From contig CASDTX010000058.1 of assembly GCA_949283695.1 (NCBI GenBank), positions 1 through 39,194 of the forward strand: DNA of 39,194 bases, read 5' to 3'. The translations under genes were made by a program, and so were the position numbers. The notes beneath the pieces were generated by a model. The model did not search any database and had not been told where the DNA came from. It worked only from the letters and a program-made list of their open reading frames with translations. This stretch comes from an uncultured Eubacteriales bacterium. Its GTDB lineage: Bacteria > Bacillota > Clostridia > Lachnospirales > Lachnospiraceae. Shown here one piece after another: positions 13,184 through 29,099 of the stretch; position 1 is the stretch's first letter; each line of letters opens with the position of its first letter.

Positions 13184-13318
13184 AGCCGCACTGACGTGCT
13201 AATTGCGGCTGCGCCGCTCCTTTGCTCATGAACTGGCGCTCAGCACATCTGCCTGTCAGCCGCCGGATTCTTATGAAAGCATAAATCCGTCTTCTGACGC
13301 AGATGGCTGAACTGATAC
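13184..13318 (+). repeat. Interspersed palindromic repeat, copy A (5'-truncated)
   Basis: The 135 bases differ from copy B (18055-18189) at only five positions with no gaps. The copy lacks the first about 27 bases of the element and abuts the uppP stop. It contains the stem AGCCGCA/TGCGGCT (13184-13190 with 13204-13210), a second stem CATCTGC/GCAGATG, and the right terminal repeat CTGAACTGATAC (13307-13318). It ends 22 bases before the -35 of the downstream ABC operon. No protein is encoded. Confidence 0.93.
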
Positions 13319-13340
13319 ACATAATTTTAGAGTGTGGGAC

Positions 13341-13368
13341 TTGTATTTTGCAGAAAACGTGATAAAAT
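13341..13368 (+). promoter_or_regulatory. Promoter of the amino-acid ABC transporter operon
   Basis: TTGTAT (13341-13346), a 16-bp spacer and an extended -10, TG-A-TAAAAT (hexamer 13363-13368), lie just downstream of repeat copy A. The leader is about 50 nt with a purine-rich GGAGGAA at 13410-13416. Confidence 0.6.
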
Positions 13369-13422
13369 TAGGAAGATAGTCTGTATGATTATGCAAAAGA
13401 AATGATTATGGAGGAATGAATC

Positions 13423-14310
13423 ATGAAAAAGTTATTGGCTGCAGCGCTGTGTGCTGTGCTGGCTGTCGGCACGATTGCAGGATGCGGAAGCAAGGATAAC
13501 AATGACACAGGCAATGAAGGCGGTTCCGAGGGCAGCAGTGCAAAGACTGCAAAGGTAATTGACGTTGATCTTACGGAAGAAGAGTATGCCTTCGGCGTCG
13601 ACAAGACACAGCCGGAGCTTCTGGAGCAGGTGAATGCGTTCATCGGCAAGATCAAAGAAGACGGAACTCTGGATGAGATCTGTGATAAGTATTTCGGCGG
13701 CGGAGATCCGACACCGGTAGAATCTGCGGAGCTCGATGCTTCCAAGGATCAGCTTGTAGTTGCCACAAACGCGGCGTTCGAGCCGTTCGAGTACATGGAA
13801 GGCGATAAGTATGTGGGGATCGACATGGAGATCGCAGCATTACTTGCTGAGGAACTGGGACAGGAGCTGGTGATCCAGAACATGGATTTCGATGCAGTGT
13901 GTTTGTCAGTCGGACAGCAGAAGTGTGATATCGCTATGGCCGGACTTACGGTCAGCGAGGACAGAAAAGAGTACGTTACATTCTCAGAGTCATACTATCA
14001 GGCTTCTCAGAGACTGATTGTTCCCAGTGATGATACATCGTTCGACGATCTGACAGACGCAGATTCGATCGCGGCAGCACTGGCAGAGCTTGATTCATCC
14101 GTTAAGATCGGCGTACAGCAGGGCACGACAGGAAACAGCTATGTAGAGGGCAGCGAGGATCTCGGATTCCCGGGTCTTGAAGCAACATGCCAGACATATA
14201 AGAACGGATCTCTGGCAGTGCAGGATATGCTCAACGGCAATATTGATTATGTGATTATCGATGCGGCTCCGGCGGCAGCAATTACAGAATCCATTAACGA
14301 GATGCAGTAA
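13423..14310 (+). CDS. Amino-acid ABC transporter substrate-binding lipoprotein, apparently circularly permuted
   Basis: The 295-residue protein has a lipoprotein signal with lipobox TIAGC (lipid cysteine C21) and a low-complexity linker to about 43. Residues about 44-92 (KVIDVDLTEEEYAFGVDK onward to DKYFG) correspond to the C-terminal segment of polar amino-acid binding proteins of the SBP_bac_3 family. The normal N-terminal start (QLVVATNAAFEPFEY) follows at about 110. The chain then ends at INEMQ, where a canonical member would continue with exactly the segment found at the front. The order of the fold is therefore permuted, not duplicated. It should capture amino acids at the membrane surface for the permease and ATPase that follow. 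A long hairpin separates it from the permease. Ligand unknown. Confidence 0.88.
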   Translation: MKKLLAAALCAVLAVGTIAGCGSKDNNDTGNEGGSEGSSAKTAKVIDVDLTEEEYAFGVDKTQPELLEQVNAFIGKIKEDGTLDEICDKYFGGGDPTPVESAELDASKDQLVVATNAAFEPFEYMEGDKYVGIDMEIAALLAEELGQELVIQNMDFDAVCLSVGQQKCDIAMAGLTVSEDRKEYVTFSESYYQASQRLIVPSDDTSFDDLTDADSIAAALAELDSSVKIGVQQGTTGNSYVEGSEDLGFPGLEATCQTYKNGSLAVQDMLNGNIDYVIIDAAPAAAITESINEMQ

Positions 14311-14339
14311 AATAACAGATAAACAGGACTTGAGCGCAG

Positions 14340-14397
14340 GAAGGAAAATACAGGCATTGATGGCAGCGGTCATGGATGCAGGCATTTTCCTTCTTTT
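14340..14397 (+). terminator. Long-stem partial terminator between binding protein and permease
   Basis: A 10-bp stem, GAAGGAAAAT (14340-14349) with ATTTTCCTTC (14384-14393), is followed by TTTT. Located inside the operon, it probably lets only part of the transcripts continue, giving excess binding protein over permease and ATPase, as is common in such operons. Confidence 0.6.
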
Positions 14398-14411
14398 GAG
14401 AAGGGAAAACA

Positions 14412-15122
14412 ATGGGTAATTTTAGTCAGAAGATAGATAAATTCGTAGAGATCTTTATAGAGCAGAACGGCTATACAAGAGTCGTGGTAGGTCTGCAGAA
14501 TACACTTCTTATCGCGATATGCGGTCTGATCATCGGAACGCTGATCGGAACGCTGATCGCGACGGTGAGAGTGCTTCCCAAATATAAACTGCTCCCGCGG
14601 GTACTGAACGGGATCTGCAGTTTCTATGTGGCGCTGTTCCGCGGTACTCCTATGGTGGTACAGCTCCTGGTGTTTTATTATGTGCTTCTGCCGCTGATCG
14701 GCTGGAACATTACCGGAGTCCAGGTATCCATGCTTGTGTTCGGTCTGAACAGCGGAGCATATATATCTGAGATCATGCGAAGCGGGATTCAGTCTGTTGA
14801 TCCGGGCCAGATGGAAGCGGGACGTGCTGTGGGCTTAAGCTTCGGCGCAAGCATGACGAAGATTGTGATCCCGCAGGCAGTGAAGAATATCCTGCCTACA
14901 CTTGGAAATGAGTTCATAGCCCTGATCAAGGAGACGTCGGTCGTAAGCTTCGTCGGCGCGGCGGATCTGTATGTGGCGTTTAACTATATCGGAACGAATA
15001 ATTATGAATTCATGGTTCCGTATCTGGTGATGGCGCTGATTTATATCACAATTGTACTGATAATTACCTTGTTGGTTAAGCTGCTGGAAAGGAGCCTGAA
15101 GAAGAGTGATAGACGTAATTAA
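14412..15122 (+). CDS. Amino-acid ABC transporter permease
   Basis: The 236-residue membrane protein belongs to the His/Glu/Gln/Arg/opine permease family. It shows several hydrophobic segments, an internal GLQNTLLIA start of the transport domain and the EAA loop that contacts the ATPase ([22 protein letters not shown] region, about 137-158). It forms the membrane channel, probably as a homodimer because only one permease gene is present. GAAGGG precedes the ATG. The 3' end overlaps the ATPase gene by 17 bases. Confidence 0.94.
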
Positions 15123-15930
15123 TCTTAGGAAAAGTTTCGGGGATCTTGAGATCCTGAAAGGAATCAATATCACCATAAACAAAGGCGATATCGTCGCCGT
15201 GCTCGGACCTTCCGGCTCCGGCAAGAGTACATTTCTCCGATGCCTGAACTGTATGGAAGACCCAACGGCAGGAAGCATTGTCTTTAAAGGGGTTGACATT
15301 GCCGATATGAAGGTGGATATCAATCTTCACCGGCGTCACATGGGCATGGTGTTTCAGCATTTTAATCTGTTCAATAACAAGACCGTTCTTCAGAACGTGA
15401 TGATGGCTCCGGCGTATCTGCGGTGTCAGGACCTGAAGAAGGCAAAGCGCAGGAACCGGATGATCAGCCTGAAAAATGTTTTCCGCAGTCAGAAAGAAGA
15501 ACTGATTCCCATCCGGGAGACGAAGGAACAGATTCGGAATGAGACAAAACAGCAGGCATTGGATCTGCTGAAGCGCATCGGTCTTGACGATAAGGCGGAC
15601 GTTTATCCGTCTACACTGTCCGGAGGACAGAAGCAGAGGGTGGCGATTATCCGCTCGCTGGCCATGAATCCGGACGTGATCTTATTCGACGAGCCTACGT
15701 CAGCGCTGGACCCGGAGATGGTCGGGGAAGTGCTTGATCTGATGAAGAAGCTTGCGAAAGACGGCATGACGATGGTGGTTGTAACACATGAAATGGGGTT
15801 TGCCCGCGAGGTGGCCTCGAGGGTGATCTTCATGGACGACGGACAGATCCGTGAGGAGGCTCCGCCGAAGGAGTTCTTTGAACATCCGAAGGATCCGAGA
15901 CTGAAAGAGTTTCTGTCCAAGATTCTGTAA
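15106..15930 (+). CDS. Amino-acid ABC transporter ATP-binding protein with a helical insertion
   Basis: The 274-residue ATPase of the GlnQ/HisP type has Walker [10 protein letters not shown] (34-42), Q-loop Q84, signature LSGGQ (171-175), Walker B ILFDEP (192-197) and H-loop H228. Family members usually have about 240-250 residues. The extra length is a basic, probably helical insertion at about 114-145, between the Q-loop region and the signature, where the domain contacts the permease. It starts at GTG 15106, inside the permease gene, with AAAGGAG at 15088-15094. The overlap implies translational coupling. It energises uptake by the upstream binding protein and permease. Confidence 0.95.
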
Positions 15931-15937
15931 GAACGAC

Positions 15938-16154
15938 AGCGTCAGTGAACAAGGGGAAACAAGCACCTTGTCCACCAACGCTAAGAGAGAAAAGCAGAAA
16001 TGTCTCAGAGATAGAAGGAGAGACAGAAGCGGAAGAAATCTACGCCGGGAATATGCAGAGAAGCAGACCAGGAGGGGAAGGGCTTTTCCTCTGGATTGTG
16101 AAGGCATAAGCCCGGCGTATTTGCGGAGAATGCCTGTCTCCGGGGGGAAGGAGA
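15938..16154 (+). other. Structured intergenic segment upstream of the sfsA-mutY fusion
   Basis: The 288 bases between the ABC ATPase and sfsA-mutY hold no credible gene; a possible 84-residue frame is Arg-rich and unlike any family. Several hairpins are visible: 15938-15954 with 15966-15982 (17 positions, 14 complementary), 16001-16006 with 16020-16025, a perfect 9-bp outer stem TACGCCGGG/CCCGGCGTA (16041-16049 with 16111-16119) around an inner CCAG...CTGG stem, and TCTCC/GGAGA at 16137-16154. This may be an operon-end hairpin plus a leader RNA. No known riboswitch is recognised and no clear promoter is seen. Confidence 0.35.
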
Positions 16155-16218
16155 GCAAAGGAGTGACTTTCCTGCAGATGGAAGATGAGACAAAAAATGA
16201 CAGACAGGAGCAGAACAG

Positions 16219-17997
16219 ATGAAATATGAACGGATGCAGAAAGCCGTATTTTTGGAACGGCCCAACCGGTTTATCGCCTATGCCGAGCTGGACGGGAAGA
16301 AAGAGACCGTCCATGTGAAAAATACCGGGCGCTGTGCAGAGCTGCTTGTGCCCGGAGCAGTGATCTATATCCAGGAGAGCGACAACCCCGGGAGAAAGAC
16401 CAGGTGGGATCTGATTGCTGTGGAGAAGGCGGAAGGCAATCAGGTACGTCTTATCAATATGGATTCCCAGGTGCCGAACCGGGTCGTGCAGGAATGGATT
16501 GAGCGAGGAGCGCTCTTTGAGGATGTGACCATGGTAAAGCCGGAGACGGTTTACGGAAGTTCCCGCTTCGACCTGTACGTGGAGGCAGGAGTGCGGAAGA
16601 TCTTCATCGAGGTCAAAGGGGTGACGCTGGAAGAAGACGGCGTCTGCCGATTCCCGGACGCACCCAGCGACCGGGCGGTGAAGCATATGGAAGAGCTGAT
16701 CCGGGCAGTGAAGGAAGGCTATGAGGCATATGTATTCTTCGTGATCCAGATGAAGGGGGTACGGTACTTTACGCCCAATACGGACACCCACCCGGCGTTT
16801 GCCGATGCACTGAAGCAGGCGGAGGCCGCAGGGGTCAGAATCCTTGCGTATGACTGCGACGTGGAGCCAGATGCAATCGCTGTGCGCAGCCCGGTAGATG
16901 TGGTGCTGAAGAGTCCGCGGATGAAAGAGTGTGTGCCCCTGCTTACGGAGTGGTTCCGGGAGAATAAGCGGGACCTGCCCTGGCGCAGGCACATGAATGC
17001 GTACCGGGTGTGGATCTCGGAGATTATGCTGCAGCAGACGCGGGTGGAGGCTGTGAAGCCTTATTACGAGCGGTTCTTACAGGAACTGCCGGATGTGAAA
17101 GCACTGTCTGAAGTGCCGGAGGACAGGCTGCTCAAACTGTGGGAAGGACTGGGATACTATAACCGGGCCAGGAATTTAAAGACGGCTGCCTGCCAGATCA
17201 TGGAAGAATATGGGGGCCATTTCCCGGAGAGTTATGAGGAGATCCGATCTCTTAAGGGGATCGGGAATTATACAGCAGGCGCGGTCAGCTCTTTTGTCTA
17301 CAATATCCCCAAACCAGCGGTGGATGGAAATGTTCTGCGGGTTGTGACCCGGATTCTCGCAGACGGAGATGATATTGCGAAGGCAGGAACGAAAACCAAG
17401 ATCGAAGCACTGGTTGAAGAGGTGATTCCTGAGGATGAGGCCGGAGATTTCAATCAGAGCCTGATCGAGCTGGGAGCGATCGTCTGCGTGCCCAACGGGG
17501 AACCCAAATGCGCGGAATGTCCTGTAAACGGGCTCTGTCTGGCGCATGAGATGGGAAGAGAGGCTGAATTCCCGGTCAAGACAAAGGCCAAGAGCCGGAG
17601 GATTGAGAAGCGAACGGTCCTGATTTTCCGGGACCGGGGGAAAACGGCGGTCCGGAAACGTCCGGACACGGGGCTTCTGGCAGGACTGTATGAGTTCCCG
17701 AATGTGGAAGGACATCTGAAGCAGGCGGAAGTCATTGAATATGCAAAGCGCCTGGGGCTGATGCCGGTCCGGGTGAAGCGGCTTGGCAGTGCGAAGCATA
17801 TCTTCAGCCATGTAGAGTGGCATATGACAGGGTATGAGATCCTGGTAGATGAGCTGGAGCATCATATGGAGACGGCGGAGACAGAGGAAACTGCGGCAGG
17901 AAAAGAGAAAGGAGCGATCATTTTCGCGGGCATCACTGAACTCAAAGAGCAGTATCCCATGCCGTCAGCGTTCGAGGCGTATTCATCCAGGCTGTGA
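16219..17997 (+). CDS. SfsA-MutY fusion: SfsA nuclease domain plus A/G-specific adenine DNA glycosylase
   Basis: The 592-residue single chain contains a complete SfsA (about 1-225) and a complete MutY (about 233-592). SfsA shows an N-terminal OB-like part (VHVKNTGRCAELL) and a PD-(D/E)xK-like core with D118 and E131-x-K133. MutY shows catalytic E268 (SEIMLQQT), the helix-hairpin-helix LKGIGNYTAGA (345-355), D369 in VDGN and the [4Fe-4S] cysteines 423, 431, 434 and 440. The first cysteine spacing is seven residues rather than six. A NUDIX-like 8-oxoG-recognition domain follows (about 464-590). MutY removes adenine opposite 8-oxoguanine. SfsA is historically a 'sugar fermentation stimulation' protein that binds DNA. 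No stop or frameshift separates the halves, and the linker is under ten residues. Confidence 0.95.
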   Translation: MKYERMQKAVFLERPNRFIAYAELDGKKETVHVKNTGRCAELLVPGAVIYIQESDNPGRKTRWDLIAVEKAEGNQVRLINMDSQVPNRVVQEWIERGALFEDVTMVKPETVYGSSRFDLYVEAGVRKIFIEVKGVTLEEDGVCRFPDAPSDRAVKHMEELIRAVKEGYEAYVFFVIQMKGVRYFTPNTDTHPAFADALKQAEAAGVRILAYDCDVEPDAIAVRSPVDVVLKSPRMKECVPLLTEWFRENKRDLPWRRHMNAYRVWISEIMLQQTRVEAVKPYYERFLQELPDVKALSEVPEDRLLKLWEGLGYYNRARNLKTAACQIMEEYGGHFPESYEEIRSLKGIGNYTAGAVSSFVYNIPKPAVDGNVLRVVTRILADGDDIAKAGTKTKIEALVEEVIPEDEAGDFNQSLIELGAIVCVPNGEPKCAECPVNGLCLAHEMGREAEFPVKTKAKSRRIEKRTVLIFRDRGKTAVRKRPDTGLLAGLYEFPNVEGHLKQAEVIEYAKRLGLMPVRVKRLGSAKHIFSHVEWHMTGYEILVDELEHHMETAETEETAAGKEKGAIIFAGITELKEQYPMPSAFEAYSSRL

Positions 17998-18027
17998 GAC
18001 TAAACGGCGACAACTGCTGCCCAGGAT

Positions 18028-18189
18028 GTATCAGTTCAGGAGCGCCATTCGCAAAGCCGCACTGACGTGCTCATTGCGGCTGCGCCGCTTCTTTGCTCGT
18101 GAACTGGCGCTCAGCACATCTGCCTGTCAGCCGCCGGATTCTTATGCAAGCATAAATCCGTCTTCTGACGCAGATGACTGAACTGATAC
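18028..18189 (+). repeat. Interspersed palindromic repeat, copy B (full length, 162 bp)
   Basis: The element has perfect 12-bp terminal inverted repeats, GTATCAGTTCAG (18028-18039) and CTGAACTGATAC (18178-18189). Flanking octamers CCCAGGAT (18020-18027) and CTCAGAAT (18190-18197) match at 6 of 8, consistent with a decayed 8-bp target duplication. Nested stems are GAGCGCC/GGCGCTC (18040-18046 with 18106-18112), GCAAAG/CTTTGC (18051-18056 with 18091-18096), AGCCGCA/TGCGGCT, and a second arm CATCTGC/GCAGATG capped by TTATGC/GCATAA. It lies 30 bases after the sfsA-mutY stop and 29 bases before the tetR -35. Confidence 0.93.
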
Positions 18190-18218
18190 CTCAGAATAAC
18201 CGAGCCCGCTCTGTTTTC

Positions 18219-18247
18219 TTGAAACTGGAGATGAACTGTGGTATACT
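18219..18247 (+). promoter_or_regulatory. Promoter of the tetR-dagK pair
   Basis: TTGAAA (18219-18224), a 17-bp spacer and TATACT (18242-18247) give a good sigma-A promoter. The leader is about 28 nt with AGGAGAG before the tetR ATG. Confidence 0.75.
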
Positions 18248-18281
18248 GTGCAGGACAGAAGAGACAGGAGAGTAGCAGAAT

Positions 18282-18890
18282 ATGAGTGAAAAGGTACAGA
18301 TGTCCAGACAGCAGCAGAAATCGAGGGAGACTAAGGAAAAGATCTTCCAGGCGGCGAAAAGCATCCTTCAGAAGCAGGGCTATGAGGAACTGTCGATTAA
18401 AAATATCTGCGAGGAGGCAGGCGTTTCCAACGGAAGCTTCTATCACCACTTTAAGACGAAAGATGATCTGCTGTCCTACTATATCGAGGACCAGCCGCAG
18501 ATGGATCCGGATCTGCTGGAACTGCCGGACAATGTGGCAGGGGTTAAGCGGGGCATTATCCAGGTATATATGAATTATGTGAAGTACTGCCGTGAGCTGG
18601 GCGTGGAGTTTATGGCTGAGTACTATGATACGAAGAATCAGGCGCTGAACGCGGAGAGCCGGGCGGAGCGTCCCTATCCCATTGTGACGGTTCAGACATA
18701 TGTAGAGAAGGCCGCGGCGGCGGGCATTGTGAAGCTGAATGTAACGATCAGTGAGTTTACTACAGATATCCGGATGATTGTGATCGGAAATGTATTTGAA
18801 TGGTGCGTGAAGCACGGGAAAGCTGATTTTGAAGGGAATATGAGCCGCTCCCTGGGGAAATATCTGGATGCGGTTCTGTGTGGGCCTTAA
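18282..18890 (+). CDS. TetR/AcrR-family transcriptional regulator
   Basis: The 202-residue protein has an N-terminal TetR DNA-binding domain (about 10-65) with the helix-turn-helix SIKNICEEAGVSNGSFYHHF and a divergent C-terminal ligand domain of helices. The ligand is not predictable. It is followed 29 bases later by a lipid kinase gene on the same strand, so it may control membrane-lipid genes including itself; this is inference from position. The promoter sits just after repeat copy B. The ATG at 18282 has AGGAG upstream. Confidence 0.9.
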   Translation: MSEKVQMSRQQQKSRETKEKIFQAAKSILQKQGYEELSIKNICEEAGVSNGSFYHHFKTKDDLLSYYIEDQPQMDPDLLELPDNVAGVKRGIIQVYMNYVKYCRELGVEFMAEYYDTKNQALNAESRAERPYPIVTVQTYVEKAAAAGIVKLNVTISEFTTDIRMIVIGNVFEWCVKHGKADFEGNMSRSLGKYLDAVLCGP

Positions 18891-18919
18891 GATTTGAGCG
18901 AAAATGCGGGGATAAATCT

Positions 18920-19882
18920 ATGAGGACGGAATATGATTTTATTATAAACCCAAAGGCGCGCTCCGGCATGGGAGAGATGGTATGGCATATGCTGGAGCCG
19001 GAACTGAAGAAACAGCGTGTGATCCATCATGTGCATCTGACTGCACGAAGGAGACATGCGGAGGAGATCGCAGCAGCGATCACTGCGGACCGCCAAGAGC
19101 ATACCATTATCGTTCTGGGCGGGGACGGCACGGTGAATGAAGTGGTGAATGGGATCCATGATCCGGGGAAAGTGACCCTTGGTTATATTCCCATTGGTTC
19201 CAGCAATGATTTCGCACGGGGGCTGGGAATCCCCAGGGATCCTGCCAGCGCACTCAGGGCAGTGCTCAATCCCCGGAAAATCGTGAACATGGACATCGGA
19301 GTTCTGACCCGCGAAAGCCGGCAGGAAATGGGCGCAGAGCCGGGGAAGAGGCGGCACAGCCGCCGGTTTGCCGTCAGCGCCGGCATGGGATTCGATGCCG
19401 CTGTCTGTCATGAGGTATGCGTTTCCCGCTGGAAAGTCATTTTGAATAAACTGGGGCTGGGAAAACTAAGCTATGCCGTGGTCGCACTGGACCGTTTGGT
19501 GAAAGACCGTCCGGTGCGGATGACGCTGACGCTGCCGGATGGCAGCAGTCAGGTGTTTGAGAGGACGTACTTCGCGGCATTTATGAATCTGAGGTACGAG
19601 GGCGGCGGATTCCAATTCTGCCCGCAGGCATCTCCGGACGATGGGATGCTGGACGTGATTGTAGCTCACGGACTGTCCCGCATTAAGATTCTGTTCCTTC
19701 TGCCGACAGCGTTCGCAGGGGAACATGTCAGATTCCGAGGAATAACCATTCAGAGATGCCGCCGGTGCTCGGCGGAGGCGGAACGGCCCCTTGCCCTGCA
19801 TACAGACGGAGAGCCGGGATTCCCCAGGAGAAGGGTGGAAGTGTCCGTGATGGAGGAAAAGCTCCGGGTGATTGCCGGATAA
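18920..19882 (+). CDS. Diacylglycerol kinase-family lipid kinase (DagK/YegS/BmrU type)
   Basis: The 320-residue protein has the DAGK catalytic GGDGT motif (67-71) in a VLGGDGTVNEV context, the IPIGSSNDFAR nucleotide-binding segment (about 90-100) and the C-terminal beta-sandwich (about 150-320). It phosphorylates diacylglycerol or a related lipid to phosphatidic acid at the membrane. The ATG at 18920 is chosen because the protein then begins directly at the domain (EYDFIINPKARSG). A GTG at 18878 would overlap tetR and add an unrelated leader. The Shine-Dalgarno is weak (GCGGGG). A short repeat fragment (copy E) begins right after the stop. A PAP2-type phosphatase, which could catalyse the reverse step, is the next gene. 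Confidence 0.9.
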   Translation: MRTEYDFIINPKARSGMGEMVWHMLEPELKKQRVIHHVHLTARRRHAEEIAAAITADRQEHTIIVLGGDGTVNEVVNGIHDPGKVTLGYIPIGSSNDFARGLGIPRDPASALRAVLNPRKIVNMDIGVLTRESRQEMGAEPGKRRHSRRFAVSAGMGFDAAVCHEVCVSRWKVILNKLGLGKLSYAVVALDRLVKDRPVRMTLTLPDGSSQVFERTYFAAFMNLRYEGGGFQFCPQASPDDGMLDVIVAHGLSRIKILFLLPTAFAGEHVRFRGITIQRCRRCSAEAERPLALHTDGEPGFPRRRVEVSVMEEKLRVIAG

Positions 19883-19883
19883 A

Positions 19884-19937
19884 CGGCCTGATGCAGGCAG
19901 AAAGCAGCCGGCCTTAAGCATACGTGTGAACTGTAAC
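19884..19937 (+). repeat. Interspersed palindromic repeat, copy E (3' fragment)
   Basis: Positions 19901-19937 match 29063-29099 of copy D at 35 of 37 bases, including the right terminal part ending GTGTGAACTGTAAC. The left part is rearranged into a short GGCC-bounded hairpin (near 19885-19914). The fragment touches the dagK stop and ends 39 bases before the predicted -35 of the PAP2 gene. Confidence 0.8.
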
Positions 19938-19976
19938 GGATTATCAAAAGATTTGATTAAGGTTTTGTGAACTTGG

Positions 19977-20005: not shown

Positions 20006-20058
20006 GACTGCGCAAAGCTGGGGAAAACAATATTGCAGTTTAGAAGGGGCATCATAGT

Positions 20059-21873: not shown

Positions 21874-21896
21874 TGGATTGGCATTCATGAAAACCA

Positions 21897-22000: not shown

Positions 22001-22600
22001 ATGCAAAATAATACACCTGCTTTAGAAACAGAGCGCTTAGTTTTAAGAAAATTCACAGAACAGGATCTGGAAGCATTGTTCTTTATACTTCAGGACGAGG
22101 AAGTTAATAAGTTTTTGCCCTGGTATCCTGTAACCAGCATGGAAGAAACAAAGAAGTTCTATGAGGAAAGATACGCTTCGAAATATGCCCGGCCGCAGGC
22201 ATATGCCTATGCGATCTGTCTGAAAGAGGACAATGCTCCGATCGGCTACATAAAAGTAGACATGGAAGAACATCATGATTTCGGCTATGGACTTCGCAGG
22301 GAATTCTGGCATCAAGGGATTGTTACAGAAGCAGCCAAGGCGGTTATAGAACAAGTAAAAAAAGACGGTCTGCCGTATATTACGGCAACACATGACAGGA
22401 ACAATCCCAGAAGCGGCAATGTCATGCGAAAGGTGGGAATGAAATACCAGTATTCTTACGAAGAACAATGGCAGCCAAAAAATCTTTTGGTTACATTTCG
22501 CATGTATCAGCTGAATCTCGACGGTAATGAAGACCGTGTTTATAAAAAATATTGGGATACTTCTGCCGTACATTTTATAGAACCGGATTTGCAGAACTGA
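22001..22600 (+). CDS. GNAT-family N-acetyltransferase (RimJ/RimL-like)
   Basis: The 199-residue protein starts with the typical LETERLVLRKFTEQDLEAL (about 8-26) and has a GNAT core with the acetyl-CoA-binding region around GYGLRREFWHQGIVTEAA and NPRSGNVMRKVGM, as in ribosomal-protein or small-molecule acetyltransferases. AGAAGG at 21985-21990 supports a start at 22001; ATGs at 21992, 21995 and 21962 are alternatives. A longer in-frame extension to 21878 would run through the trpS terminator and is rejected. It transfers acetyl from acetyl-CoA to an amino group; the substrate is unknown. It is a single gene convergent with tRNA-Arg, with which it shares a terminator. No good promoter was found directly upstream. 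Confidence 0.85.
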   Translation: MQNNTPALETERLVLRKFTEQDLEALFFILQDEEVNKFLPWYPVTSMEETKKFYEERYASKYARPQAYAYAICLKEDNAPIGYIKVDMEEHHDFGYGLRREFWHQGIVTEAAKAVIEQVKKDGLPYITATHDRNNPRSGNVMRKVGMKYQYSYEEQWQPKNLLVTFRMYQLNLDGNEDRVYKKYWDTSAVHFIEPDLQN

Positions 22601-22663
22601 ATTTCACGAGAGCCCTTGTCCACCGACGCTAGGGAGTCAGCAATAACGGAGAATCAGAGAACA

Positions 22664-22697
22664 GAAAAAGAGCATCTCGTTTGAGATGCTCCCTTTT
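22664..22697. terminator. Bidirectional terminator between the GNAT gene and tRNA-Arg
   Basis: The 9-bp stem GAGCATCTC/GAGATGCTC (22670-22678 with 22683-22691) has a GTTT loop, TTTT on the plus side (22694-22697) and five T on the minus side (22669-22665). It serves both convergent units. Confidence 0.88.
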
Positions 22698-22698
22698 A

Positions 22699-22772
22699 CG
22701 TGCGATAGAAGATTCGAACTCCCGACCTTCTGGTCCGTAGCCAGACGCTCTATCCAGCTGAGCTAATCGCAC
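22699..22772 (-). tRNA. tRNA-Arg (anticodon ACG)
   Basis: The minus strand folds into a standard cloverleaf: acceptor GTGCGAT/ATCGCAC with discriminator G, a D-arm with AGCTCAGCTGGATAGAGC, anticodon stem TCTGG/CCAGA around loop CTACGGA (anticodon ACG, read as ICG after deamination), and a TTCGAAT T-loop. CCA is not encoded. A consensus promoter lies upstream and an intrinsic terminator downstream. Confidence 0.97.
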
Positions 22773-22807
22773 ATATCGATTACTTTGTTCTCTTCAGAAC
22801 GAAAATT

Positions 22808-22836
22808 ATTATATTACATTTTCTGCGGCATGTCAA
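22808..22836 (-). promoter_or_regulatory. Consensus promoter of tRNA-Arg (minus strand)
   Basis: On the minus strand TTGACA (22836-22831), a 17-bp spacer and TATAAT (22813-22808) match sigma-A consensus at all 12 bases, as expected for a stable RNA gene. Confidence 0.93.
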
Positions 22837-22871
22837 TAACATTTTTGAAAAAATGTATTATCAAATCAGTA

Positions 22872-22917
22872 TTGACAAATATAAAATACTAGTGTACTAT
22901 CTAGCTATAGCACTAAT
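22872..22917 (+). promoter_or_regulatory. Promoter and palindromic operator of the ytrA-type GntR/ABC operon
   Basis: TTGACA (22872-22877), a 17-bp spacer and TACTAT (22895-22900) form the promoter. A 30-bp imperfect palindrome centred on CTAG (22888-22917), with ACTAGTG and CACTAAT outer arms, covers the -10 and the start site. This placement is typical of the self-operator of YtrA-type GntR repressors, so autorepression with relief by an inducer is expected. Confidence 0.7.
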
Positions 22918-22935
22918 GCACAAAGGAGGTATGTC

Positions 22936-23307
22936 ATGGAATACAATACAGGCGTGCCGATCTATCTTCAAGTGATCAATGAACTGAAGAAGAAGATGGT
23001 GAAAGGGGAACTGCGGGCCGGTGAGAAGATGCCGTCAGGCCGGGATCTGGCTGTTGAGTATAAGGTGAATCAGAATACGGCGGCGCGGATCTACCGGGAG
23101 ATGGAAATGCAGGGCTACTGTTTTACGAAGCGCGGCATCGGCACTTTCGTGTCAGAGGAGGAAAATATGTTTCAGGATTTGAAGAAAGAGATGGCTCAGG
23201 AGCTGGTCAGAAGTTTTATGCATGAAATGAGCGGACTTGGCTATGGGAAAGACGATATTATCGGTCAGATTGCAGATTATAAGGAGGAAGAAGACGATGA
23301 TGCTTGA
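22936..23307 (+). CDS. YtrA-subfamily GntR transcriptional regulator
   Basis: The 123-residue protein has the short YtrA layout: a GntR winged helix (about 10-75, beginning PIYLQVINELKKKMVKGELRAG) followed by a C-terminal tail of about 45 residues that forms a dimerisation helix, with no large ligand domain. These regulators usually repress an adjacent ABC transporter operon, as here. AAAGGAGG at 22921-22928 precedes the ATG. The stop overlaps the start of the ATPase gene by 11 bases. The acidic C-terminus (EEEDDDA) results from that overlap. Confidence 0.92.
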   Translation: MEYNTGVPIYLQVINELKKKMVKGELRAGEKMPSGRDLAVEYKVNQNTAARIYREMEMQGYCFTKRGIGTFVSEEENMFQDLKKEMAQELVRSFMHEMSGLGYGKDDIIGQIADYKEEEDDDA

Positions 23308-23983
23308 ATGCAGAGGACTGACAAAACAGTTTGGATCTAAGACGGCAGTTTCGGATCTGACGCTGAACATTCAGAAGGGAAAGATCTACGGACTGCTGGG
23401 GGAGAACGGAAGCGGCAAGACGACTTGGATGAAAATGGCGGCCGGGCTTACGCGGCCGGGGCGCGGGGAGATCCTTTATGACGGGCATCCGCTGATGTAC
23501 CGGGATAAAGCGAAGATCGCCTACATGGCCACAGAACCATTCTTCTATGACTATATGAAAGTAGAGGATGTAAGCGAGTATTATGAGGCGTTCTTTGAGG
23601 ACTTTGACCGCAGAAAGTGCACAGAGCTGGCCGGCAGGATGGGGATCACTCCGGACCTGAAGGTGCGGAACCTCTCCAGCGGTATGAGCGCGAAGCTGAA
23701 GCTGGCGGCTACGCTGTCGAGGAAGGCAGAGCTGTATCTTCTCGACGAGCCGCTCAACGGCATTGACTACAAGGCGCGGGAGGAGATCATTCAGCTGATC
23801 CTGGAAGAAGCCGGGGAGGAGAATACCTTTGTGATTTCTACCCATCTGCTGGAGGAGATCGAGAGCTTTATCGAATATGCCATATTTATCAAGGACGGAC
23901 GATTGGTCGACAAGGTCAATCTGGAGTCCGAGCGGATGAAGAGCGGCCGGTCTCTGACAGAGATTTATGTGGATCTGATGTAG
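23297..23983 (+). CDS. ABC transporter ATP-binding protein (exporter type)
   Basis: The 228-residue ATPase has Walker A GENGSGKTT, signature LSSGM and Walker B YLLDEP, and the compact layout of YtrB/bacitracin-type exporters. AAGGAGGA at 23281-23288 supports ATG 23297 (ATGATG, so 23300 is possible). An earlier frame start at 23237 is inside the regulator. It pairs with the permease gene that follows and probably responds to membrane or antibiotic stress via the YtrA-type repressor; this function is inferred from family context. Confidence 0.93.
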   Translation: MMLECRGLTKQFGSKTAVSDLTLNIQKGKIYGLLGENGSGKTTWMKMAAGLTRPGRGEILYDGHPLMYRDKAKIAYMATEPFFYDYMKVEDVSEYYEAFFEDFDRRKCTELAGRMGITPDLKVRNLSSGMSAKLKLAATLSRKAELYLLDEPLNGIDYKAREEIIQLILEEAGEENTFVISTHLLEEIESFIEYAIFIKDGRLVDKVNLESERMKSGRSLTEIYVDLM

Positions 23984-24022
23984 AGGAAATGACTGGATAA
24001 AAAGGGAGGAGGATTTGAAAAC

Positions 24023-24784
24023 ATGGGTAAACTGATTAAATATGAACTGAAGAAACAGGGGGCATCCCGAATGGTGATCTTCATTGCGCTGGCAGCTGCG
24101 CTCCTTGCGTTCTGGGTGGGATTCCTGTTTGAGAAAGAAACGGTACTGGCGATAAGTATATTGGCCATGGTATTCGGCGGAATGCTGGCATTTTTCTATA
24201 CGGGGATCGAGAGCATCCTTGTACTGAACCGTGATCTCAGGACGAGGCAGAGCTACATGCTCTGGATGCTGCCGAAGTCGATCTGGGAGATCCTGGGGGC
24301 GAAATTCATCTCTGCGATCCTGCAGATGCTGATCGTATTCGGCACCGCCGGCATTGCGGTAGGCGTGAGTATGGCGGCGGCAATATGGAAAATAGAAGGT
24401 CTTGATCGGCTGATTCAGGCGGGGCAGGAGCTCTCCCGCATCTTCATCCGCGGGGGTGTGCACTGGGGTGATTTTGTACTGCTTGCATTCGTGATATTCC
24501 TGGCCTGGACACTTGTGATTATGACCGGATTTCTGTCTGTGATCCTGTCCAGGACGGTTCTGATCCGATCGAAATTTGCGGGTTTGTTTGCGGTCATTCT
24601 GTTCTTTGTCATTACATTCGTGATTGAACGTCTGTATGAATGGATGTATCGGATTCCCGGGGTGATGGAGATGACATCCGGGCATCTGGAATGGAATGTG
24701 CCGGATACGCTGTACTATATCGCTGTCTGCGCGATCCTGTTCGGCGTGTCAGGGATGCTGGCAGAGCGGAAGCTGAGTGTATAG
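24023..24784 (+). CDS. ABC-2-like exporter membrane subunit
   Basis: The 253-residue protein is polytopic, with about six hydrophobic segments (near 20-35, 42-62, 97-125, 150-175, 185-205 and 232-250) in the ABC-2 permease arrangement. It begins with the amphipathic MGKLIKYELKKQG helix common in such subunits. It has no recognisable solute motif. GGGAGGAGG at 24003-24011 lies upstream. The last 36 bases overlap the 3' end of the convergent pseudouridine synthase gene. It should form the membrane part of the exporter with the preceding ATPase. Confidence 0.85.
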   Translation: MGKLIKYELKKQGASRMVIFIALAAALLAFWVGFLFEKETVLAISILAMVFGGMLAFFYTGIESILVLNRDLRTRQSYMLWMLPKSIWEILGAKFISAILQMLIVFGTAGIAVGVSMAAAIWKIEGLDRLIQAGQELSRIFIRGGVHWGDFVLLAFVIFLAWTLVIMTGFLSVILSRTVLIRSKFAGLFAVILFFVITFVIERLYEWMYRIPGVMEMTSGHLEWNVPDTLYYIAVCAILFGVSGMLAERKLSV

Positions 24785-25663
24785 CGGGCGCTGCATATCT
24801 TCCGGCAGCGGCGCAGTGAATTCCAGCCAGGCGGCGGTAATGGGGTGGCGAAACGCCAGGCGGTGCGAGTGCAGAGCCTGCCTGGTGATAAACTCCATGT
24901 CGGGATTGTACAGATAGTCGCCGATGAGGGGATGACCGATGGATTTCATATGGACACGGATTTGATGGGTGCGGCCTGTCTCCAGCACGACGGAGACGAG
25001 GCTGTGCCCGTTTCTTTCCTCTATGACCCGGTAATGAGTGACTGCTGGGAGGCCGTTTTCAAAGTCCGGTCTGCGCTCGATCAGAGAAGTCCCGGCTCTG
25101 CCGATAGGGACATCAATGGTTCCTTCCGCCGGGGAGACGGAGCCGCGGACTACAGCCAGGTATTCCCGGGTAATCTCGTGCCGGGCGCCCATACCGGAGA
25201 GGATACTGGAACTTACCATGTGTTTGGCGATCACGGTCAGGCCGGAAGTGTCCCGGTCCAGACGGTTCGTACACCGGAAGACAAAAGCCTGCCCCTGCTC
25301 CTGGTAGTAGTACATCAGGGCGCTGGCAAGGGAGTTCCGGTAGTTGTTAAGAGATGGATGAACCGGCATGCCGGCCGGTTTGTTCACCACCAGGATATCC
25401 TCATCTTCGTAGACAATGTCCAGAGGCAGCCTGGAAGGCGGGATGTTGGGGGAAGACTCGGTCTCCTGGATGTGGACTGTGAGCGTGTCTTCTGCTTCCA
25501 GGGGAGTGCGCATATAGGACCAGACACCGTTGATGCGGATGCTCTCCGGCATTTTCTTAAGCTGTGTCAGGTTCTGGTAGGAGTAGCCGCGGCGGCGCAG
25601 ATACTGTTCGACCCGCAGCCCGGCCGAAGGTCTGTCTATATGGTAAGTAATCGTCCGATTCAT
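24749..25663 (-). CDS. RluA-family RNA pseudouridine synthase
   Basis: The 304-residue protein has a short S4-like N-terminal region (about 12-65) and the RluA catalytic core with NRLDRDTSG (catalytic D136), where the usual leading His is Asn. ILVVNKPAGMPVHP (90-103) and the GRTHQIRVHM motif follow. It isomerises specific uridines in rRNA or tRNA; the target cannot be told. AGGAGG on the minus strand at 25674-25669 sets the ATG at 25663, and longer frame extensions upstream enter repeat copy C and the tex region. The stop lies inside the convergent ABC permease gene, a 36-base tail-to-tail overlap. Confidence 0.92.
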   Translation of the reverse strand: MNRTITYHIDRPSAGLRVEQYLRRRGYSYQNLTQLKKMPESIRINGVWSYMRTPLEAEDTLTVHIQETESSPNIPPSRLPLDIVYEDEDILVVNKPAGMPVHPSLNNYRNSLASALMYYYQEQGQAFVFRCTNRLDRDTSGLTVIAKHMVSSSILSGMGARHEITREYLAVVRGSVSPAEGTIDVPIGRAGTSLIERRPDFENGLPAVTHYRVIEERNGHSLVSVVLETGRTHQIRVHMKSIGHPLIGDYLYNPDMEFITRQALHSHRLAFRHPITAAWLEFTAPLPEDMQRPLYTQLPLCQHP

Positions 25664-25774
25664 GAGGGCCTCCTGTTTTCTGATCCTGTGATCGGCATGG
25701 CCCTGTACAGGGCAGGTATCCCTATTGTGCAGAATTCGGGCGGGGATGTCAAGTCCTGCAGTCTGCCCATTTCT

Positions 25775-25844
25775 GCGCGCCATCCGCAAAGCCGCACGGA
25801 CGTGCGGATTGCGGCTGTGCCGCCGGTTTGCCATGAACTGTAAC
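25775..25844 (+). repeat. Interspersed palindromic repeat, copy C (degenerate 5' half plus terminus)
   Basis: The copy shares GCGCCATcCGCAAAGCCGCAC with copies B and D and keeps the stems GCAAA/TTTGC (25786-25790 with 25827-25831) and GCCGCA/TGCGGC (25791-25796 with 25810-25815). The second arm is deleted, and the copy ends with GAACTGTAAC, the same terminus as copy E. It lies between the divergent rluA-type gene and tex, about 60 bases before the tex -10. Confidence 0.75.
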
Positions 25845-25903
25845 GAACTGCTGCGATATAGGCGCTGTTTTCTGATGAACATCTTTCTTCTGGGGATGGA
25901 ACG

Positions 25904-25912
25904 TGGTAAGAT
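25904..25912 (+). promoter_or_regulatory. Extended -10 promoter element of tex
   Basis: TG-G-TAAGAT (25904-25912) is an extended -10 element. The -35 region around 25884-25889 is poor. Transcription would start near 25919, giving a leader of about 33 nt. Confidence 0.4.
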
Positions 25913-25951
25913 ATAGGCTGGAACGAAAAAGACAGAGAGGATAAATATTTC

Positions 25952-28108
25952 ATGGATATTAACCAGAAACTGACAGAAGAACTGAATGTGAAGCGGTGGC
26001 AGATTGACGCCGCGGTGAAATTGATTGATGAGGGAAGTACCATCCCCTTTATCTCGCGATACAGAAAGGAAGCGACAGGTTCGCTCAATGATGAACAGCT
26101 CAGGAAACTCCACGAGCGTCTGTTGTATCTGCGCAATCTGGAAGAGAAGAAGGAGCAGGTGATCTCCAGTATTGAAGAACAGGGGAAGATGACGGAAGAG
26201 CTGCGCCGGCAGATCCTTGCGGCGGAGACGCTTGTTACAGTGGAAGATCTGTACCGCCCGTACCGGCCGAAGCGGAGAACCCGTGCCACGATTGCCAGAG
26301 AGAAAGGGCTGGAACCACTGGCAGTCTATATCCTGGCGCAGAATGCGAAGGAGCCGCTGGAGAAGACGGCGGAGCAGTACCTGTCGGCAGAGAAAGAAGT
26401 TGCATCCGTGGAAGACGCCCTGGCGGGGGCAAAAGACATTATCGCAGAGATGATTTCTGATGAAGCGGACTACCGGAGCTGGATCCGGAGAACAACGATG
26501 AAGAAAGGGAAAGTCATTTCCACGGCGAAAGATCCGGATGCCGAGTCTGTGTATGAGATGTACTATGAGTTCGAAGAGCCTGCGTCAAAGCTGGCCGGGC
26601 ACAGGATCCTGGCATTGAACCGGGGAGAGAAGGAGAAGTTCCTTACCGTGAAGGTGGAGGCGCCGGAGGAGGAAATCCTGCGCTATCTGGAGAAGAAGAC
26701 AATCCATAAGGACAATCCCTATACAGCGCCTGTGCTGAAGGAGACCGTGGAGGACAGCTACCGCCGGCTGATCGCTCCGGCCATCGAGCGAGAGATCCGC
26801 AGCGAACTGACCGAGAAGGCAGAGGACGGAGCCATCGAAGTGTTCGGGAAAAACCTCCATCAGCTTCTCATGCAGCCGCCTGTGGCCGGGAAAGTCGTAC
26901 TGGGCTGGGATCCGGCGTTCCGTACAGGCTGTAAGCTGGCGGTCGTGGACCCGACGGGAAAAGTGCTGGGGACGACGGTGATCTATCCGACTGCGCCGAC
27001 CACGCCGCAGAAGATCAAAGCCAGCAAAGATCTGCTGAAGAAGATCATTCCCAAGTACCATATTTCCCTGATTTCGCTCGGCAACGGCACCGCATCCAGG
27101 GAGTCTGAGCAGTTCATTGTGGAACTTTTAAAAGAGATCCCGGAGCAGAAGGTGCAGTATGTGATTGTCAATGAGGCCGGGGCTTCTGTGTACTCCGCAA
27201 GCAAGCTGGCCAGCGAAGAGTTCCCGAAGTTTGATGTGGGCCAGCGGAGCGCGGCTTCGATCGCCCGGCGCCTGCAGGATCCGCTTGCCGAGCTGGTGAA
27301 GATCGATCCGAAATCGATCGGAGTCGGCCAATATCAGCATGATATGAACCAGAAGAAGCTGGGAGGATCCTTAAACGGAGTCGTGGAAGACTGCGTGAAT
27401 AAAGTGGGCGTGGACTTAAATACAGCGTCAGCGCCGCTGCTTTCCTATATCTCAGGAATCAGCGCCGCAATCGCCAAGAATATCGTGGCATACCGTGAGG
27501 AGAACGGTCGGTTTATGGACCGGAGGGAACTTCTGAAGGTGCCGAAACTGGGCCCCAAGGCGTATGAACAGTGCGCCGGCTTTATGCGCATCCAGGGCGG
27601 GAAGAATCCGCTGGATGCCACGGGTGTTCATCCGGAATCCTACCAGGCGGCGGAGAAACTGCTGGAGAAGCAGGGCTTCCGAACAGAAGATATCACTGCC
27701 CATCGCTTAAGCGGACTCTCCCTCACCATCAAAGACTATAAGAAACTGGCGGAAGAACTGGGAATCGGGGAGATTACCCTGCGGGATATCGTGAAGGAAC
27801 TGGAGAAACCGGCCAGAGATCCCCGGGATGAGATGCCCAAACCGATTCTGCGGACCGATGTTCTGGATATGAAAGACTTAAAAGAGGGAATGATCCTCAA
27901 AGGAACCGTGAGAAATGTCATTGACTTCGGCGTGTTCGTAGACATCGGCGTACACCAGGACGGACTGGTCCATATCTCTCAGATCACAGACCGCTTTATT
28001 AAACATCCGCTGGAGGCAGTGAGCGTGGGTGATATCGTAGATGTGAAGGTCATGAGTGTGGATCTGAAGAAAAAGAGGATTCAGCTGACAATGCGGGGGA
28101 TCCAGTAA
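25952..28108 (+). CDS. tex: RNA-binding transcription accessory protein Tex
   Basis: The 718-residue protein is full length, with the Tex N-terminal helical domain (STIPFISRYRKEATGSL at about 29-45, a family hallmark), a YqgF/RNase H-like domain (about 320-450, GWDPAFRTGCKLAVVD), helix-hairpin-helix repeats (about 490-560, NTASAPLLSYISGI and VPKLGPKAYEQCAGF) and a C-terminal S1 RNA-binding domain (about 645-715, LKGTVRNVIDFGVFVDIGVHQDGLVH). Tex proteins associate with elongating RNA polymerase and influence transcription and virulence gene expression; their exact activity is not settled. GAGAGGAT precedes the ATG. The gene is single, with repeat copy C upstream and a long hairpin downstream. 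Confidence 0.97.
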   Translation: MDINQKLTEELNVKRWQIDAAVKLIDEGSTIPFISRYRKEATGSLNDEQLRKLHERLLYLRNLEEKKEQVISSIEEQGKMTEELRRQILAAETLVTVEDLYRPYRPKRRTRATIAREKGLEPLAVYILAQNAKEPLEKTAEQYLSAEKEVASVEDALAGAKDIIAEMISDEADYRSWIRRTTMKKGKVISTAKDPDAESVYEMYYEFEEPASKLAGHRILALNRGEKEKFLTVKVEAPEEEILRYLEKKTIHKDNPYTAPVLKETVEDSYRRLIAPAIEREIRSELTEKAEDGAIEVFGKNLHQLLMQPPVAGKVVLGWDPAFRTGCKLAVVDPTGKVLGTTVIYPTAPTTPQKIKASKDLLKKIIPKYHISLISLGNGTASRESEQFIVELLKEIPEQKVQYVIVNEAGASVYSASKLASEEFPKFDVGQRSAASIARRLQDPLAELVKIDPKSIGVGQYQHDMNQKKLGGSLNGVVEDCVNKVGVDLNTASAPLLSYISGISAAIAKNIVAYREENGRFMDRRELLKVPKLGPKAYEQCAGFMRIQGGKNPLDATGVHPESYQAAEKLLEKQGFRTEDITAHRLSGLSLTIKDYKKLAEELGIGEITLRDIVKELEKPARDPRDEMPKPILRTDVLDMKDLKEGMILKGTVRNVIDFGVFVDIGVHQDGLVHISQITDRFIKHPLEAVSVGDIVDVKVMSVDLKKKRIQLTMRGIQ

Positions 28109-28123
28109 GAGAATAAAGACAGT

Positions 28124-28182
28124 GAAGCGGCTGTCTGTCCGGCGGAATATCCTGTGATGCCAACGGACAGAGCAGCCGCTTC
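28124..28182. terminator. Long hairpin between convergent tex and acetyltransferase genes
   Basis: GAAGCGGCTG-t-CTGTCCG (28124-28141) pairs with CGGACAG-ag-CAGCCGCTTC (28164-28182), giving 17 base pairs with a small internal bulge. It has no strong T tail on either strand. It probably separates the convergent transcripts. Confidence 0.6.
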
Positions 28183-28188
28183 GTCAGA

Positions 28189-28800
28189 TCAGAGATCTTC
28201 CCAGTTGATCTCTCTGTCTTTGTAATAGTATTTCCGATCATGATCAGAGATCTCTCTTAAGACCCGGCAGGGGTTGCCCACTGCTACTACATTCGCGGGG
28301 ATGTCTTTCGTCACGATGCTTCCGGCTCCGATCACCGTATTGTCGCCGATGGACACTCCGGGGAGAATGATGGCTCCGGCTCCGATCCAGCAGTTACGTC
28401 CGATATGTACCGGAATATTGTACTGGTAGGCTTTCTCCCGAAGCTCGGGAAGGATCGGATGACCGGCAGTGGCGATCGTAACGTTGGGGCCGAACATGGT
28501 ATAGTCGCCCACATAGATATGGGTGTCGTCGACCAGAGTCAGATTGTAGTTTGCATAGATCCATTTCCCGAAGTGGACATGATGGCCCCCGAAATTGGAG
28601 TGCAGCGGGGGTTCGATGTAGCAGCCCTCTCCCAGTTCGGCAAACATTTCCTTCAGCATCTGGAAGCGCTTTTCCCCTTCTGACGGACGCGTCATATTAT
28701 AGTCATAAAGGCGTTCCATGCATGCGGTCTGTTCTTTCAGTATTTCCGGGTCTCCGGGGTTGTAGATCTTTTCACTGTGCAGTTTTTCGTATTCTGTCAT
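28189..28800 (-). CDS. Maltose/galactoside-type sugar O-acetyltransferase (left-handed beta-helix)
   Basis: The 203-residue protein is a typical LacA/Maa/NodL-like member. It has an N-terminal helical cap (EKLHSEKIYNPGDPEIL, about 4-20), hexapeptide repeats through the middle, the catalytic His in TAGHPI, and the C-terminal GAIILPGVSIGDNTVIGAGSIVTKDIP coil region with GNPCRV. It transfers acetyl from acetyl-CoA to a sugar hydroxyl, probably to detoxify non-metabolised sugars; the trimer is cytosolic. AAAGGAGG on the minus strand (28816-28809) fixes the ATG at 28800 rather than an earlier frame start at 28896. It stands alone. Confidence 0.93.
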   Translation of the reverse strand: MTEYEKLHSEKIYNPGDPEILKEQTACMERLYDYNMTRPSEGEKRFQMLKEMFAELGEGCYIEPPLHSNFGGHHVHFGKWIYANYNLTLVDDTHIYVGDYTMFGPNVTIATAGHPILPELREKAYQYNIPVHIGRNCWIGAGAIILPGVSIGDNTVIGAGSIVTKDIPANVVAVGNPCRVLREISDHDRKYYYKDREINWEDL

Positions 28801-28866
28801 AAGGGTTCCTCCTTTACCGATTCGGTGTCCGCCGGACCGCTGCGGCACGGCAGAAACTCTGACTTC

Positions 28867-28895
28867 ATTATAGGGCATCTGCAGGGGAAGCGCCA
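28867..28895 (-). promoter_or_regulatory. Possible promoter of the sugar acetyltransferase gene (minus strand)
   Basis: A perfect TATAAT lies on the minus strand (28872-28867), with only a weak TGGCGC -35 (28895-28890) at 17 bp. Confidence 0.4.
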
Positions 28896-28934
28896 TCCTA
28901 AATTTTCAAACAATTCCGGTTGTGCCCAGCATCT

Positions 28935-29099
28935 GTTGCCGTTCACAGGAGCGCCATTCGTAAAACCGCACTGCGTGCTTATTGTGGCTGACGCCACTGT
29001 TTTACTCATGAAAAGGCGCTCCCTACGTCTGCTATAAGGCCGCCTGCCCCTTATGCAAACATAAAGCAGTCGGCCTTAAGCATACGTGTGAACTATAAC
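28935..29099 (+). repeat. Interspersed palindromic repeat, copy D (full length, 165 bp, with target duplication)
   Basis: The ends GTT...GTTCACA (28935-28947) and TGTGAAC...AAC (29087-29099) are inverted. The element is flanked by an exact 8-bp direct repeat CAGCATCT (28927-28934 and 29100-29107), extending to nine with CC at the left. Stems are GGAGCGCC/GGCGCTCC (28948-28955 with 29015-29022), GTAAAAC/GTTTTAC (28960-28966 with 28999-29005), and a second arm GGCCG...CGGCC containing CTGC/GCAG and TTATG/CATAA. The sequence is diverged from A and B but the fold is kept. It ends seven bases before the dnaJ -35. Confidence 0.9.

Follow-up and report, generated by a model that had tools for sequence, protein, structure and literature searches.

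The window examined here is a stretch of 39,194 nucleotides from an uncultured Eubacteriales bacterium of the family Lachnospiraceae (contig CASDTX010000058.1 of assembly GCA_949283695.1, positions 1 to 39,194), and the draft genome that holds it (G000) is 79% complete and consists of 66 contigs totaling 2.9 Mb. Dispersed through the window are five copies, A through E, of a short repeat with inverted ends, of which two are complete (B and D) and three are truncated (A, C, and E), and which fall into two subfamilies according to their ends. These repeats are miniature inverted-repeat transposable elements (MITEs). The copies, with their ends and flanking octamers, are as follows (R1 is a covariance model of the element, described below):

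13183..13318, plus strand: copy A, lacking about 26 bp at its left, with its right end at 13308-13318; the R1 match spans 13160-13318
18020..18027, no strand: left target octamer of B, CCCAGGAT, agreeing with the right one at 6 of 8 positions
18028..18189, plus strand: copy B, a complete 162-bp MITE with B-type ends, scoring 176.4 bits with R1 over model positions 1-164
18028..18039, plus strand: left terminal inverted repeat of B, GTATCAGTTCAG
18178..18189, minus strand: right terminal inverted repeat of B, GTATCAGTTCAG as read on the minus strand
18190..18197, no strand: right target octamer of B, CTCAGAAT (6 of 8)
19887..19937, plus strand: copy E, reduced to the right end (19927-19937) and the right-hand half of a D-type hairpin 2
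25775..25844, plus strand: copy C, hairpin 1 only plus the right end (25834-25844); the R1 match spans 25781-25840, model positions 20-80
28927..28934, no strand: left target octamer of D, CAGCATCT (8 of 8)
28935..29099, plus strand: copy D, a complete 165-bp MITE with the D-type right end GTTATAGTTCACAC on the minus strand, scoring 130.6 bits with R1
29100..29107, no strand: right target octamer of D, CAGCATCT, which continues into a TTGACA box also present in the congeners inspected

The five places named in the original prediction are real, as are the positions it gave for B, C, and D and its readings of the perfect 12-bp inverted ends of B, of the octamers around B, and of the exact 8-bp repeat around D. 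The common length of about 162 to 165 bp that it assigned to all five holds for B and D, the other three being truncated; copy E begins at 19887 rather than 19884, and copy A begins at 13183. Copies A and B are 96% identical across 136 bp. At 162 to 165 bp the element cannot exceed about 55 codons, which fits the original statement that no copy encodes a protein (size was the sole criterion), and the only Rfam matches in the window at gathering score are two tRNAs.

Copy number in the draft genome

At E ≤ 0.001, sequence searches of the draft genome return 40 places matching B and 37 matching D, which amount to at least 73 distinct places once overlapping matches are merged, well beyond what chance would give, so that the outcome under which the original prediction was to be abandoned, namely no further copies in the genome, did not occur. 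(Copy C is not among these matches and was reached through the end pattern and the covariance model.) Fourteen of the 73 lie at contig ends (C2, C15, C16, C17, C21, C22, C29, C32, C36, C39, C40, C46, and, twice, C47) and are mostly about 141 bp long, as k-mer overlap would leave; the repeat thus interrupts the assembly, and the genome probably contains more copies than were counted. Shorter copies with duplications matching at 7 or 8 of 8 positions measure 79, 84, 98, 61, and 44 bp. The 79-bp form consists of hairpin 2 only and the 84-bp form of hairpin 1 only, the two lengths adding up to 163 bp: the long form may be two short forms joined, or the short forms may be deletions of the long one. 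Insertions beside other copies of the repeat are seen often (a raw observation), and head-to-tail copies or part-copies exist in several genomes (loci L256 to L260; G085:C3:77376-78020).

Ends, target duplications, and empty sites

Members of the family end in GTAWCAGTTCAGCC or, in the D-type subfamily, in GTTACAGTTCACAC. We scanned the own-genome loci and the window for pairs of ends fitting GTWWCAGTTCA (at most two mismatches per end, 30 to 300 bp apart) and compared the octamers outside each pair, with expected counts obtained by pairing left and right flanks at random. Octamers agree at six or more of eight positions in 18 of 54 pairs (8 of them exactly), against 0.9 expected, the 54 including chance pairs and two readings of locus L006. 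Exact flank repeats peak at 8 bp, with counts of 2, 8, and 1 at 7, 8, and 9 bp. Octamers agree to the same degree in 11 of 55 end pairs from congeners (1.15 expected; 68 loci scanned, 13 of them without a pair) and in 9 of 32 from other genera (1.1 expected), where many elements retain ends such as GTAACAGTTCAGCC. Exact octamers are scarcer in congeners (3 of 55), as expected of older insertions.

Nine congeners were retrieved for the site of B, and seven were inspected. The window reads CCCAGGAT-(162 bp)-CTCAGAAT-AACCGAGC at this site; in two of the seven congeners the site is empty and shows a single octamer, the sequence being GACAGGAT-AACCGAGC in G002 and GGCAGGAT-AACAGAGC in G060. Spacers in four of the seven are too diverged to read, and in the remaining one (G052, locus L230) a short piece, GTAACAGTTAC, stands where B is inserted and may be left over from a copy since lost. 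At the site of A, also inspected in seven congeners, there is no trace of the element in G002, G004, and G024; G069 retains an end scrap (TGAACTGTCAC), G070 and G042 a remnant of hairpin 2, and G052 has other sequence. Such remnants indicate that some insertions are old. Copy E is not seen in any of the four congeners inspected, the best-aligning of which is G007. The gap between the genes flanking D measures 12 to 70 bp in six of nine congeners, which lack both D and the open frame at 28189-28896; the other three hold about 0.8 kb with no similarity to the stretch in the window, and element scraps or end-to-end remnants persist in the gap in five of the nine. In the window itself, 28102-29099 is a stretch of about 1 kb comprising copy D and that open frame, which lies on the minus strand.

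Duplications and empty sites together show insertion. Along with the short length, the inverted ends, and duplication counts above those of shuffled pairing, they support the original reading of the family as MITE-like, with 8-bp duplications; its proposed refutation, relatives that always carry the element and never show an empty site with one octamer, is contradicted by G002 and G060.

An IS66-like element as candidate driver

The MITEs probably depend on an enzyme encoded by a larger mobile element of the same genome, and comparison of sequences points to one insertion sequence (IS) as the best candidate driver. An IS with matching ends, for which the original prediction had proposed a search, is present: an element of 1,820 bp at C32:149-1968, whose ends are GTAACAGTTCAGCC and GTAACAGTTCACCC and whose 8-bp duplication, CGAAAAAA, is exact. 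At its left end, the 14 terminal bases are identical to those of MITE copies such as L008, and the element stands 7 bp from a MITE. It contains the single IS66 Pfam match of the draft genome (C32:297-1064), which has GTAACAGTTCA on either side, with CGAAAAAA duplicated, is part of a 485-amino-acid (aa) frame and whose DDE_Tnp_IS66 domain scores 75.5 bits versus a Pfam cut-off of 23.1. Residues D251, D302, and E428, which we take to be the IS66 DDE motif, are invariant in all eight aligned relatives of the protein. A single open reading frame (ORF), GTAAC-type ends, and an 8-bp duplication are traits of the ISBst12 group, and the C32 element has all of them. Its nearest relative over most of the protein comes from Candidatus Eisenbergiella merdavium (84%). 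Named genomes supplied 15 relatives of the IS; of these, three (L177, L179, and L182) have ends GTAACAGTTCAG and exact 8-bp duplications, L178 has ends GTAACTATTCAG and an exact 8-bp duplication, and the duplication of L180 matches at 7 of 8 positions. A tRNA-Glu gene lies at 2068-2140 of locus L061 (same coordinates in L116), 100 bp past the right end of the C32 element.

Two congeners (G014 and G049; loci L170 and L171) carry another IS66-family element, 2,358 bp long, whose frame encodes 567 aa and which has GTTACTGTTCACAC as its ends and exact 8-bp duplications. For this 567-aa element the ends are also recorded as GTTACTGTTCA, and the D-type MITE ends, GTTACAGTTCACAC, resemble those of the element, which may drive the D-type copies. 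Other IS66-family pieces occur in the genus, and a scan of 33 loci containing them for GTWWCAGTTCA-like ends returned four with duplications matching at 7 or 8 of 8 positions. Three of these (L131, L170, and L171) represent the 567-aa element, a single copy of it underlying both L131 and L170; the fourth, L151, with a duplication matching at 7 of 8 positions and ends alike at 5 of 14, is probably a chance match. A stricter end pattern gave no hit at eight loci of this kind.

A covarying fold and its spread over genera

On either strand, copy B folds into a stem formed by its paired ends plus two hairpins, which together make a three-way junction, and D folds alike (z, -6.4 to -8.1). In alignment A1 (49 copies picked by hand from 65 rows), 97.1% of the cells of the consensus structure hold standard pairs, and changes on both sides occur at 22 of 46 pairs, versus 9.1 (standard deviation, 1.7) in shuffles and 4 to 9 when slid; none of 500 shuffles reached any of five measures. 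These counts are to be read with two caveats: because the structure was taken from the same alignment, it looks better than it should against the slid control, and counts from related copies can surpass those of shuffles even without structure. A second alignment, A2, was fitted to the R1 model and so leans to the structure of that model.

R1, with at most 14 candidates scored per genome, detects the element in 29 of 200 family genomes (one per genus, our own included, which leaves 28 among 199 other genera), in most cases along all 164 positions; a plain DNA search detects it in 14 of the 200. Thirteen of 295 genomes drawn from the order also match, 7 of them in two other families. The set of 32 copies that represents other genera in our counts omits second copies of one and the same element (L304, L305, L307, and L312) and L338 (60 bp), and L308 is covered by another copy of its genome.

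A strand-specific core shared with Clostridiales-1

Within the fold is a core motif, defined here and not by Rfam: ATGA-xyz...x'y'z'-GAAT, in which xyz and x'y'z' are complementary, or ATGA-RNA...TNY-GAAT. It is present in 43 of 49 copies of our own genus, in 29 of 32 from other genera (27 genomes), and in 29 of 30 copies of RF01699, the Rfam family Clostridiales-1. On the opposite strand it is found in 0 of 32, and in background windows in 18 of 855; a stricter, fixed pattern yields 26 of 32 for other genera, 23 of 30 for RF01699, and 13 of 853 for background. The letters of xyz vary (GCA, GTA, GGA, ACA, ATA, GAA, AAA), and their partners vary with them. R1 hits lean to the core because the model was built from copies having it, a bias of which the RF01699 copies are free. 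Among the window copies, D has an intact core and A has lost one side of it. ATGA and GAAT may be read as a helix with tandem G·A pairs; such tandem pairs are stable, as are loops of the C(GNA)G and G(CUUG)C types.

It took a permissive Rfam search, run on seven loci, to bring out the link with RF01699: all five loci from other genera match that family over its full length at 30 to 37 bits, on the strand opposite to the listed strand of B. Filing the repeats as RF01699 was rejected, as these matches fall short of the gathering score of 48 and the two own-genome loci (L001 and L031) are unlisted at E ≤ 0.1. Common motifs stand at the same places in the alignments.

RF01699 itself matches 161 of 299 family genomes sampled (130 over the gathering score) and 0 of 14 control genomes, and many family genomes match at all nine places scored per genome. 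Among its 30 best-scoring loci (L339 to L368), inverted ends TGATRYYRGGGTCAAAAG are present in 27, none being found for L346, L350, and L367. Flanks were counted in 23 loci, with L352, L353, L360, and L362 also dropped as out of register: an exact 5-bp repeat occurs in 10 of the 23, versus 1.07 in shuffles, and with one end shifted by one base the repeat is 6 bp in 10 and 4 bp in 13 of the 23. Our own genome contains one RF01699-type copy, which is flanked by AAAAA at either end and lies next to a window-type fragment. Being repetitive, with inverted ends and flank repeats, RF01699 looks like a second MITE that has other ends and the same core. Two MITE types would thus share one folded core, and we infer that this core is a passenger that has joined two or more sets of transposon ends.

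What the repeats are and what moves them

We consider it highly probable that the MITEs are moved by an IS66-family (ISBst12-like) transposase, for which the C32 element is the best candidate driver, and that they carry a folded core common to RF01699 repeats. A single-ORF, ISBst12-like DDE transposase of the IS66 family would recognize the ends GTAWCAGTTCAGCC, or GTTACAGTTCACAC in the D type, and would insert the MITEs mostly between genes, duplicating 8 bp; C32:149-1968 encodes a protein of this type between matching ends. Between the MITE ends lies the folded core, with its two hairpins and strand-specific motif, and the Clostridiales-1 repeats contain the same core between other ends. Insertions lie inside open frames in 10 of 60 cases, versus 84 to 86% of random positions (naive frame calling). 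The covarying fold, its spread across many genera, and the core common to RF01699 go beyond the original prediction.

Several observations weigh against this interpretation. The C32 protein scores 145.6 bits, under the NCBIfam IS66 equivalog cut-off of 180, for which reason we name the element IS66-like and not that equivalog, and 10 of the 15 relatives of its IS have no clear end pair, some being cut by contig ends. Matches to the protein occur in 7 of 58 genomes of the genus and, besides the one in its own genome, none exceeds 32% identity over most of the length (the others above 32% are short pieces only). MITEs were found in 17 of 24 congeners sampled; with the C32-like protein scarce and MITEs common in the genus, most copies are without such a driver in the same assembly. 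R1 found the core in none of 20 loci with the C32 IS or its relatives, save the MITE beside our own IS, so the IS has no need of the core in its own body. The core of copy B itself is changed (ACGA for ATGA on the minus strand), and RF01699 leaves the two own-genome loci unmatched, as noted above. The evidence, moreover, consists of sequence comparison between congeners and genera.

It is possible, but in our estimation unlikely, that the elements are primarily a family of structured noncoding RNA genes like Clostridiales-1 RNA, with their mobility incidental. The strong covariation (both-side changes at 22 of 46 pairs) and the strand specificity of the core fit such a family, and Rfam has RF01699 as a small RNA, which its discoverers (PMC2864571) list as a probable RNA that is probably not cis-regulatory. 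An RNA under selection should favor G-U, but the stems have no preference for it over A-C: departures from Watson-Crick pairing on the core strand number 33 G-U versus 27 A-C in other genera and 33 versus 47 in our own genus. The counts on the elements show no strand preference. (A tRNA control, at 34 to 0, is not relied on, since ARAGORN brackets hold standard and G-U pairs only.) Neighboring genes are not aligned with the core strand (upstream, 19 same and 38 opposite; downstream, 26 same and 32 opposite), which lends no support to a cis-acting RNA, although it does not speak against a separate gene; and the duplications and empty sites show insertion. We favor a passenger or helper role for a folded single strand, with selection presumably acting on the folding of one strand.

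Pairing in the hairpins could instead be maintained by palindrome correction, in which replication errors transfer the sequence of one arm to the other, rather than by selection, which we think improbable. Near-perfect Watson-Crick pairing could follow from such a process, and the similar numbers of G-U and A-C departures could be its residue. The core, however, is not palindromic: ATGA opposite GAAT has two nonstandard positions, and the core is nevertheless kept in 29 of 32, 43 of 49, and 29 of 30 copies of the three sets, on one strand only. Least probable, at a small chance, is movement by a transposase other than that of C32, to which the absence of the IS from most MITE-bearing congeners and the D-type ends (differing at several bases and resembling the ends GTTACTGTTCA of the 567-aa element) would point, but which sits poorly with the 14 terminal bases shared by the IS left end and copies such as L008, the 8-bp duplication of both MITE and IS, and the adjacency of the IS to a MITE.

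On the following proposal our judgment is evenly balanced: a folded nucleic-acid module, conserved on a single strand and distributed over many genera of the Lachnospiraceae and two other families of the order, would be carried by MITEs whose ends are of two or more unrelated kinds (the IS66 type, with 8-bp duplications, and the RF01699 type, with 5- to 6-bp duplications), the Clostridiales-1 "RNA" being one such carriage, and the module would act on its own, perhaps as folded single-stranded DNA in replication or transposition rather than as RNA.

Relation to known elements

REP elements, which go with RAYT genes, were considered as an identity for the repeats. They are given as palindromes of 20 to 40 bp in the consulted portion of PMC3733652, versus 162 to 165 bp with 8-bp duplications here, and the identity was rejected. 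The BOX and RUP repeats of Streptococcus pneumoniae, as treated in the consulted sections of PMC3049150, are alike in being short, structured, MITE-like repeats whose ends pair mutually; BOX is modular, and the ends of RUP resemble those of IS630-Spn1 of the same host. They differ in their ends and IS family, and those sections report no core common to differently ended repeats. MITECca01 of Cardinium is, like the present case, a MITE whose parental IS can be identified within the host genome, but that IS belongs to the IS982 family, and the part of PMC9769881 consulted describes no conserved internal fold. No IS66-driven MITE was recognized in the open-access literature searched, as far as the consulted parts extend (including PMC3189936, PMC9769881, and PMC3281130).

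Closest to the C32 element is ISDge4, a published active member of the ISBst12 group, which according to the consulted text of PMC12898284 has one ORF, ends GTGACTACTCAGCA/GTAACTGCTCAGCA, and an 8-bp direct repeat, compared with a single ORF, ends GTAACAGTTCAGCC/GTAACAGTTCACCC, and an 8-bp repeat in the C32 element. Unlike the ISBst12 group, the MITEs are noncoding and contain a folded core; the C32 element, for its part, is a candidate driver, not the repeat. Clostridiales-1 (PMC2864571) resembles the MITEs in its core motif, GCTTGC loop, similar length, and junction and differs in its ends, TGATRYYRGGGTCAAAAG, and its 5- to 6-bp duplications. That paper, which places Clostridiales-1 in Clostridiales and in the human gut, does not call it mobile in the main text; its Additional File 1, which takes up motifs that the main text leaves aside, may already say more.

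If the interpretation advanced here is true, mobile DNA would have to be the new reading of a candidate RNA class with matches in 161 of the 299 genera sampled, and it would become a testable question what makes the folded core worth keeping in differently ended elements.

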